A stretch of DNA of 64,000 bases from Vibrio cyclitrophicus (lineage in GTDB: Bacteria > Pseudomonadota > Gammaproteobacteria > Enterobacterales > Vibrionaceae): contig NZ_AP025480.1 of assembly GCF_024347435.1 (NCBI RefSeq), positions 2,728,001 through 2,792,000 of the forward strand, written 5' to 3'. Below the pieces are notes generated by a model. It did not search any database. It had not been told where the DNA came from and saw only the letters and a list, made by a program, of their open reading frames with translations. Each line of letters starts with the position of its first letter. Positions within the stretch are counted from its first letter, which is position 1. Shown in pieces: positions 30,052-31,852 of this stretch. The translations under genes and the position numbers were made by a program.

Positions 30052-30570
30052 TTAACCTCTACGCAATTTGCGTTTTCCTTTTGTTTTTCGCTCTTTAAAC
30101 GGCATTGCCAAAGATGCGAATTCTTTCATCGCTCGACGGTACACATCTCGCTTAAAAGAAACAACTTGTCGAACAGGGTACCAGTAACTCACCCAACGCC
30201 AACCATCAAATTCAGGTGTACTTCCACGCTGCATATTGATCTGCGATTCATCGCAATCTAAGCGTAAAAGGAACCACTTCTGTTTTTGTCCAATACAGAC
30301 AGGTTTAGAATCCCACCGAACCAGTCGTTTGGGTAGCTTATAGCGTAACCAATGACGACTTGTCGCGACGATCTTTACATCCTTTTTAGTAAGGCCAACC
30401 TCTTCATACAACTCACGGTACATTGCCTGTTCCGGAGTTTCACCTTCATCTATTCCCCCTTGAGGGAATTGCCATGAATGTTGCCCGTATCGTTTAGCCC
30501 AGAAGACCTGACCATGGTTGTTACAGATTACAATACCAACATTTAATCGGTAACCATCGCCATCTATCAC
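30052..30570 (-). CDS. rppH: RNA pyrophosphohydrolase RppH
   Basis: A Nudix hydrolase that removes pyrophosphate from 5'-triphosphorylated mRNA and so triggers RNase E decay. The Nudix box runs [22 protein letters not shown], with all catalytic glutamates. The start chosen is GTG at 30570 (reads [12 protein letters not shown] after initiation), with GAGG seven bases upstream, giving 172 residues as in related proteins (E. coli 176). An in-frame ATG at 30633 would add 21 residues without family support. It is the first gene of the operon running to thyA, divergent from mutH. Confidence 0.93.
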
Positions 30571-30606
30571 TGGCCAACCTCTATCTAAATTTTTAATTAC
30601 TCTGAT

Positions 30607-31084
30607 TTTTCCACATATCCCCAATCGGAGCAAACTTAGTGACGTGATAAGCGCTATATTTATGAATATTAACTACGAATATGGATAAGTTTTGCTCAAA
30701 TTCTAGTTACCCACACAATAGTGAGACATAGACCACATTTATTCACCTTTTCTGTGAATAACTATGTGAAGAATTCCCCGCAATCGTTTTTTTTAATCCA
30801 TAGATTCATCAACACCTTAAACAACAAATCAATTATCAACATTTTAAACCATTAAAAATCAACAAATTAAAATCATAATCATAATTTTAAAAACATTTAG
30901 AAAGCAAAAGATCTTTCAAAAATCGAACGTGGTTAAAGATCAACCACTCAGGTGTTTATCCACACTAGCAACTGAAAGATTCATTTTGCCCCCTATTTAG
31001 CAAGCATTTTATCCACCACAAACCCCTGTTTATTTATACACTAAATTAATATTTCAATTAATTACCTTTATGTCCTGTGGATAA
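30607..31084. promoter_or_regulatory. DARS2-like DnaA-box cluster in the rppH-mutH spacer
   Basis: DnaA-box-like 9-mers are crowded into this AT-rich spacer. TTATCCACA is perfect at 30956-30964 (+) and 31076-31084 (-). One-mismatch boxes are 30607-30615, 30680-30688 (-), 30707-30715, 30753-30761 (-) and 31009-31017. Weaker are 30739-30747 and 31034-31042. Two full matches to the IHF consensus WATCAANNNNTTR lie at 30834-30846 and 30857-30869, and a near-consensus Fis site (only the central base off) at 30931-30945. As I recall, E. coli DARS2, which regenerates ATP-DnaA with IHF and Fis, lies in this same mutH-rppH spacer. Promoters for both genes must also be here. Confidence 0.72.
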
Positions 31085-31186
31085 CCACGAGTTTGATCCC
31101 TTTTTAAGTAAGGAGATCATTTCTTAACCAGTCGTCATATGGTGATAACTTCTGGTAAAATCGTTTTTTTGATTATGCTTTTTATT

Positions 31187-31852
31187 ATGAAACCAGAACC
31201 ACAAACACAACAAGAGCTATTAGACAGAGCGTATACTATTGCAGGGATGACCTTCAAAGAGCTCTCCGATGAAGCCGAGATGGTGATGCCAAGCGACCTT
31301 AAGCGTGATAAAGGTTGGGTTGGGCAGCTGTTAGAATGGCATTTAGGTGCACCCGCTGGCAGTAAGCCAGAACAGGATTTTGCAAAGCTGGGCATCGAAC
31401 TTAAAAGCATTCCGATTGGTTATTCTGGAAAGCCACTCGAAACAACGTTTGTTTGTGTTGCGCCACTGATGGGCGTACAAGGCATAACATGGGAAACTAG
31501 CCACGTTAGAAATAAACTGTCTAAAGTGCTGTGGATCCCAGTTGAAGGAGAAAGAGAAATCCCGTTGGCAGAAAGGCATGTTGGTTCACCTTTATTATGG
31601 ACGCCAAGCCAAGAAGAAGATGAACTTCTAAAAAGAGATTGGGAAGAGCTGATGGAGTTGATTGTTTTAGGCAATGTTGAACAGATAACAGCAAGGCACG
31701 GTGAAGCACTCCATTTACGCCCTAAGGCCGCAAACAGTCGTGTGTTAACGGAAGCTTACGGTGCAAGCGGTAAACCCATAAAAACCAAACCTCGTGGTTT
31801 TTACTTAAGAACCCAGTTCACCCATAAACTGCTGACTGCACACTATGCATAA
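31187..31852 (+). CDS. mutH: DNA mismatch repair endonuclease MutH
   Basis: A 221-residue endonuclease that nicks the unmethylated strand at hemimethylated GATC during mismatch repair. The catalytic triad D-x6-E-x-K is in [14 protein letters not shown] (near 62-75). GSPLLWTP and the [11 protein letters not shown] stretch agree with the E. coli protein (229). The start at 31187 ([12 protein letters not shown]) fits the family best, although its ribosome site is weak; in-frame ATGs at 31175 and 31139 are alternatives. It implies Dam methylation in this organism. Confidence 0.95.

Follow-up and report, generated by a model that had tools for sequence, protein, structure and literature searches.

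Does the cluster of DnaA boxes between rppH and mutH of Vibrio cyclitrophicus act on DnaA as DARS2 does in Escherichia coli? The original prediction placed a DARS2 counterpart in this spacer on the letters of the window (the whole 64-kb stretch of DNA that was analysed). We compared the locus with E. coli and with other Vibrionaceae. The neighbouring genes are where the prediction had them, with the rppH homology start at 30570 (minus strand) and the mutH ATG at 31187 (plus strand):

30052-30570, minus strand: rppH (RNA pyrophosphohydrolase), GTG start placed by homology, 77% identity to E. coli RppH in tblastn.
30571-31186, no strand: rppH-mutH intergenic spacer, 616 bp, delimited by the rppH homology start and the mutH ATG and containing the entire element.
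30607-30615, plus strand: upstream perfect DnaA box TTTTCCACA, found in a scan with TTWTNCACA.
31187-31852, plus strand: mutH, ATG at 31187, 65% identity to E. coli MutH in tblastn.

The list of open reading frames puts the rppH start at a TTG at 30633, where homology instead favours the GTG at 30570; with the latter start, the box at 30607 is probably outside coding sequence. In a homology check, rppH and mutH flanked the core described below in 31 of 31 Vibrionaceae loci (30 loci and our own). The core-to-mutH distance is ∼1.3 kb in one Vibrionaceae genome (L049), pointing to an insertion in the right-hand portion of its spacer.

The 478 bp from 30607 to 31084 (31% G+C) contain 12 DnaA-box-like 9-mers at no more than one mismatch to TTWTNCACA. 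Four of these are perfect, at 30607 (TTTTCCACA, plus strand), 30753 (TTATTCACA, minus), 30956 (TTATCCACA, plus) and 31076 (TTATCCACA, minus). The earlier count of nine boxes, two of them perfect, was thus too low, but both copies of TTATCCACA on which it relied lie where it placed them. Nowhere else in the window does a 478-bp stretch surpass this box count (mean 0.84), and neither the total nor the number of perfect boxes was equalled in any of 1,000 dinucleotide shuffles, which held on average 2.56 boxes at up to one mismatch and 0.15 perfect ones.

The decisive part of the element is a core of three boxes that the original prediction had not singled out:

30739-30773, plus strand: DARS core, boxes I, II and III with gaps of 5 and 3 bp, located by box scan against E. 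coli.
30739-30747, plus strand: DnaA box I, TTATTCACC, identical to E. coli box I.
30753-30761, minus strand: DnaA box II, TTATTCACA, inverted, a perfect box.
30765-30773, minus strand: DnaA box III, TTCTTCACA, inverted, identical to E. coli box III.

Box orientations and the 5/3 gaps equal those of both E. coli K-12 DARS2 (L001:2636-2670; boxes at 2636, 2650 and 2662) and E. coli DARS1 (L002:608-642; boxes at 608, 622 and 634), two sites described in passages of PMC8682772 as having in common a core whose three boxes are arranged in a unique way. Allowing up to three mismatches, the core pattern has a single match in our genome, at 30739-30773. The prediction had cautioned that box order and spacing differ from E. 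coli; this does not hold, since the gaps in the core are the same as in E. coli and the distal modules are shifted outward by only 6-7 bp. The modules beyond the core are:

30834-30846, plus strand: first IHF consensus match, TATCAACATTTTA, offset 95 from box I, outside the conserved alignment blocks.
30857-30869, plus strand: second IHF consensus match, AATCAACAAATTA, offset 118, its TCAA and TTA columns partly conserved.
30931-30946, plus strand: Fis-site-like block with AAAGATCAACCA (30935-30946), counterpart of FBS2-3, the 12-mer identical in E. coli.
30956-30964, plus strand: counterpart of DnaA box V, TTATCCACA, starting 21 bp after the Fis 12-mer starts, a spacing shared with E. coli.
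31026-31041, no strand: conserved element CTGT-N8-ACAC, defined by conserved alignment columns and lying 50 bp ahead of the right box.
31076-31084, minus strand: right DnaA box, inverted, TTATCCACA, 337 bp from box I (330 in E. coli).

The order of these modules, Fis motif first, then box V, then the right inverted box, is that of E. coli. Measured from box I, the Fis 12-mer AAAGATCAACCA lies at 196 here and 190 in E. coli, and box V at 217 and 211, respectively. The near-consensus Fis site predicted at 30931-30945 was found by eye to match GNNYANNNNNTRNNC with one mismatch, and the genome encodes a Fis homologue (83% identity). Among 57 Vibrionaceae spacers chosen for having the core (our own, 30 + 6 loci and 20 from the list of core matches), 51 had the Fis motif in place at up to two mismatches and 51 had box V in place at up to one mismatch, 22 of these with a perfect copy. 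The Fis-to-box V spacing of 21 bp was kept in 47. The right box was in place at up to one mismatch in 55 and perfect in 51. Control scans at six positions displaced by 40 to 100 bp gave 0-10 of these 57. All distal features were present in 7 of 7 loci from E. coli and its order relatives, which with the 57 make up our 64-locus comparison set. In an alignment of 35 of the 64 sequences the conserved blocks were the core, some of the second IHF match, the Fis-site-like block, box V, the CTGT element and the right box; between them lay variable AT-rich DNA. At the position of the 30607 box the alignment majority is TTTTTCACA, and E. coli has no box there. The division of the Vibrionaceae spacers into 22 with a perfect box V and 35 without fits a statement in parts of PMC8682772 that some species have a full box V and others weak boxes alone.

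Both predicted IHF matches are full matches to WATCAANNNNTTR at the positions given for them. A strict IHF consensus occurs within the first 300 bp in 13 of the 64 loci and is missing from 51; E. coli has none under the same pattern. Where a locus has any, it usually lies at offset 117-120 (11 of 13). Judged by sequence, support for the putative IHF sites is weaker than for the other modules and is the weakest link of the DARS2 reading. Sections of PMC4245941 report that IHF and Fis sites are conserved in related species.

The CTGT element was followed further in a 110-bp stretch of the 64 loci, where CTGT-N8-ACAG was exact in 12, carried one mismatch in 24 and more in 28. Shuffled sequences gave 0.03% exact and 1.9% one-mismatch occurrences, far below these counts, which argues that the element at 31026-31041 is real. 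We rejected its assignment as a LexA box, because the palindrome that E. coli fits is absent from most Vibrionaceae, the right half not being conserved; a pair of weak DnaA boxes is an equally likely explanation.

The sequence, order, spacing, conservation and synteny described above, together with the fis gene, lead us to read 30607-31084 as the Vibrio orthologue of E. coli DARS2, with the same proposed mechanism, at a probability of about 0.92. A DARS1-like core in this genome and chromosomal positions close to those in E. coli, both given below, add to the support. The counterpart that was predicted is upheld in its location, its core geometry, its Fis/box V module and its right box, all collinear with E. 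coli and conserved in Vibrionaceae, and the sequence comparison supports the DARS2 reading more firmly than the original prediction held it.

How such an element would work we infer from published E. coli work (parts of PMC4245941 and PMC8682772), both for the binding and exchange steps and for an effect on chromosome 1 initiation. ADP-DnaA would bind the core boxes, where the opposed boxes I and II, which bind ADP-DnaA head to head according to a passage of PMC8682772, would hold two DnaA molecules in that arrangement and so loosen the ADP. Bending of the AT-rich middle by IHF would bring the Fis-bound distal module to the core, and on this contact ADP would leave and apo-DnaA be released, which would then rebind ATP. 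Once ATP-DnaA is plentiful it would fill box V and displace Fis, and the site would be turned off. Compared with E. coli, the distance from core to Fis is 6 bp longer, more than half a turn of the helix. The bending model does not predict such a difference, and this counts against the DARS2 reading, as do the small number of loci with a strict IHF consensus or a perfect box V and the 10 Vibrionaceae genomes in which the core was not found.

The core is widespread in the family. With up to three mismatches, its fixed pattern was present in 187 of 197 Vibrionaceae genomes; among the 10 without it are two genomes of 1.0-1.1 Mb and one that is 74% complete. Our own genome has a second core, listed next, and a related pattern (up to one mismatch) was found in 103 of 150 Vibrionaceae genomes:

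C1:1030999-1031033 (L086 1501-1535): DARS1-like core with exact 5/3 gaps, ∼350 bp before uvrB.

No match to bioD was found within 1.5 kb of this core, unlike E. coli DARS1, and without that neighbour we class the site as DARS1-like only. On the side opposite uvrB there is, by eye, a tRNA-like stretch. When 30 related-core loci, none of them further from our own genus, were checked for uvrB, the gene adjoined the core in 14, all outside a Vibrionaceae genus labelled g279 (perhaps Photobacterium), and did not in 16, all within g279. The DARS2 element and the DARS1-like site lie on opposite sides of oriC, resembling E. coli; their distances from oriC as fractions of the chromosome, computed by hand from coordinates with mnmG (C1:3405544-3407424) as the oriC mark, are 0.19 for DARS2 (0.21 in E. 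coli) and 0.30 for the DARS1-like site (0.33 in E. coli).

To look beyond the family we used a pattern of three boxes in which each gap was free to vary from 0 to 12 bp (169 combinations). It matched 117 of 369 Gammaproteobacteria genomes, from 95 of 272 genera, leaving 252 genomes without a match; 31 of the 117 had two or three matches each, and the reversed control gave 0 of 369. Among the class-wide matches listed, 146 of 150 had exactly the 5/3 gaps, and in 132 of these 146 the base preceding box II was C, though the pattern left it free; the 146 include related genomes and are not 146 independent events. In other classes of the phylum the 5/3 spacing accounted for 11 of the 23 matches listed, and given these mixed spacings we make no claim of DARS there. 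Within the order the pattern matched 83 of 375 genomes, with several families giving none and one genome (G673) matching the reversed control; the non-matches mean either that the pattern is too strict or that DARS is absent.

The class-wide cores recur beside particular genes. Among 50 class loci (26 found by the Vibrio/E. coli form of the core and 24 by the free-gap pattern), 12 lay within 450 bp of priA, 6 within 450 bp of rpmE/hemW and 32 near neither. A contig scan of at least 119 loci, overlapping in part with the 50, placed priA within 450 bp of 31 and at 0.45-1.5 kb from 7, rpmE/hemW near 22, origin genes near 1 and none of these near 58. Orientation to priA was the same at every close site, in 12 of 12 class loci and 31 of 31 contig-scan loci. 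The contig-scan matches listed include Xanthomonas, Lysobacter, Luteibacter, Nitrosomonas, Methylomonas, Halomonas and Duganella; three loci (L127, L150 and L194) come from metagenome bins labelled Actinobacteria or Alphaproteobacteria. Some loci among L004-L029, L062-L085 and L118-L236 have common sequence to the right of the core. Neighbouring genes lend no support to the idea that these matches are pieces of oriC: dnaA, dnaN, rpmH, rnpA, mnmG, rsmG and mioC were found in 0 of the 50 class loci within ∼1.5 kb (some loci end earlier, at contig ends). In the contig scan, L194 has matches to dnaN and recF within 2.5 kb, and weak rsmG matches occur at L147 (1.4 kb) and L149 (2.3 kb). We read the class-wide core as a candidate DARS-like element of wide spread, and its 5/3 geometry may serve as a sequence signature for DARS candidates elsewhere in Gammaproteobacteria.

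These recurrences bear on what else the rppH-mutH cluster could be. Two divergently oriented genes flank it, and DnaA is able to regulate transcription (passages of PMC11317965), so that a promoter region of mutH and/or rppH under DnaA and Fis control, instead of a nucleotide-exchange site, deserves consideration. Such a gene-specific operator would not be expected to share its core geometry with sites beside the unrelated genes uvrB, priA and rpmE-hemW. The order here also equals that of a site with demonstrated exchange activity in E. coli, and we consider an operator improbable. A cluster that merely titrates DnaA, or a datA-like site of ATP hydrolysis, would also offer many boxes and IHF sites, and E. 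coli datA has five boxes and one IHF site (PMC4585315, in part). We judge this very improbable: titration has no need of the fixed 5/3 spacing with opposed boxes that predominates among the class-wide matches listed, and the Fis/box V module is typical of DARS2, datA being set apart here by its description rather than by sequence. A chance cluster is hardly credible, for all the AT-richness of the DNA, given that no shuffle equalled its box count and that the core and the distal modules keep their positions across the spacers compared.

Further cores turned up on the smaller replicon of genus g279. Eight g279 loci (L303, L304, L306, L308, L310, L312, L314 and L316) have a core with 5/3 gaps whose right flank is partly conserved and whose upstream sequence varies. 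In 10 g279 genomes, chosen for having sites on contigs C2 and C1 (G512, which likewise qualified, was left out), the contig with the extra core measures 1.16-1.94 Mb and the one with the DARS2 core 2.3-3.8 Mb. Seven of the 10 have dnaA on C1, and in the other 3, which are more fragmented, the gene is on a third contig; three of the genomes (G375, G459 and G415) consist of two contigs only. A match on chromosome 2 of our own genome (C2:696792, three mismatches) was rejected, with a poor box III and a flank that by eye is unlike those of the g279 smaller-replicon sites. If the g279 copies act as DARS, an activator of chromosome 1 would increase in dose as chromosome 2 replicates, a signal from one chromosome to the other that these copies make testable. 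Our tentative wider proposal, to which we give slightly less than even odds, is that DARS is a control unit found throughout Gammaproteobacteria, with an exact-5/3 core upstream of priA, at rpmE-hemW, at uvrB, at rppH-mutH and in places as yet unsorted, sometimes two or three to a genome, and that one Vibrionaceae genus has a smaller-replicon copy whose dose would rise as chromosome 2 replicates, with feedback on DnaA-driven initiation of chromosome 1. A literature search of open-licence papers returned nothing on DARS at priA or rpmE-hemW, on a second replicon, or beyond E. coli relatives and V. cholerae, and the DARS passages of PMC13220808 and PMC12371093 mention neither priA/rpmE-hemW nor second-replicon DARS.

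DARS-like sites in Vibrio have been noted before. Part of PMC6090056, citing Fujimitsu 2009, places DARS-like sequences of V. cholerae at uvrB and mutH, so that such sites in Vibrio are already published, and the legend to the DARS2 Figure 8 of PMC8682772 lists V. cholerae N16961 and Shewanella denitrificans. The V. cholerae sequences belong to the same family and lie in the same two places as ours; what the present data add is the measured conservation of the layout within Vibrionaceae. E. coli DARS1, at bioD-uvrB, shares the orientation and 5/3 gaps of the core but occupies a different locus from rppH-mutH, and has only minimal accessory regions and does not require both IHF and Fis (PMC8682772, in part). 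The likeness to E. coli DARS2 extends to the neighbouring genes, the core orientation and gaps, the Fis 12-mer, the 21-bp Fis-to-box V spacing, the right inverted box and an aligned IHF-like site. The E. coli element differs in a core-to-Fis distance 6 bp shorter than in Vibrio, in its box II (CTATCCACA as against TTATTCACA here), in a box at L001:2942 that has no counterpart here, and in having no strict IHF consensus match under the pattern that finds two here. Vibrionaceae and E. coli share the DARS2 layout: the gaps within the core are the same, and the modules hardly differ in order or distance. This conservation makes the E. coli model of DnaA recharging directly testable in two-chromosome bacteria.
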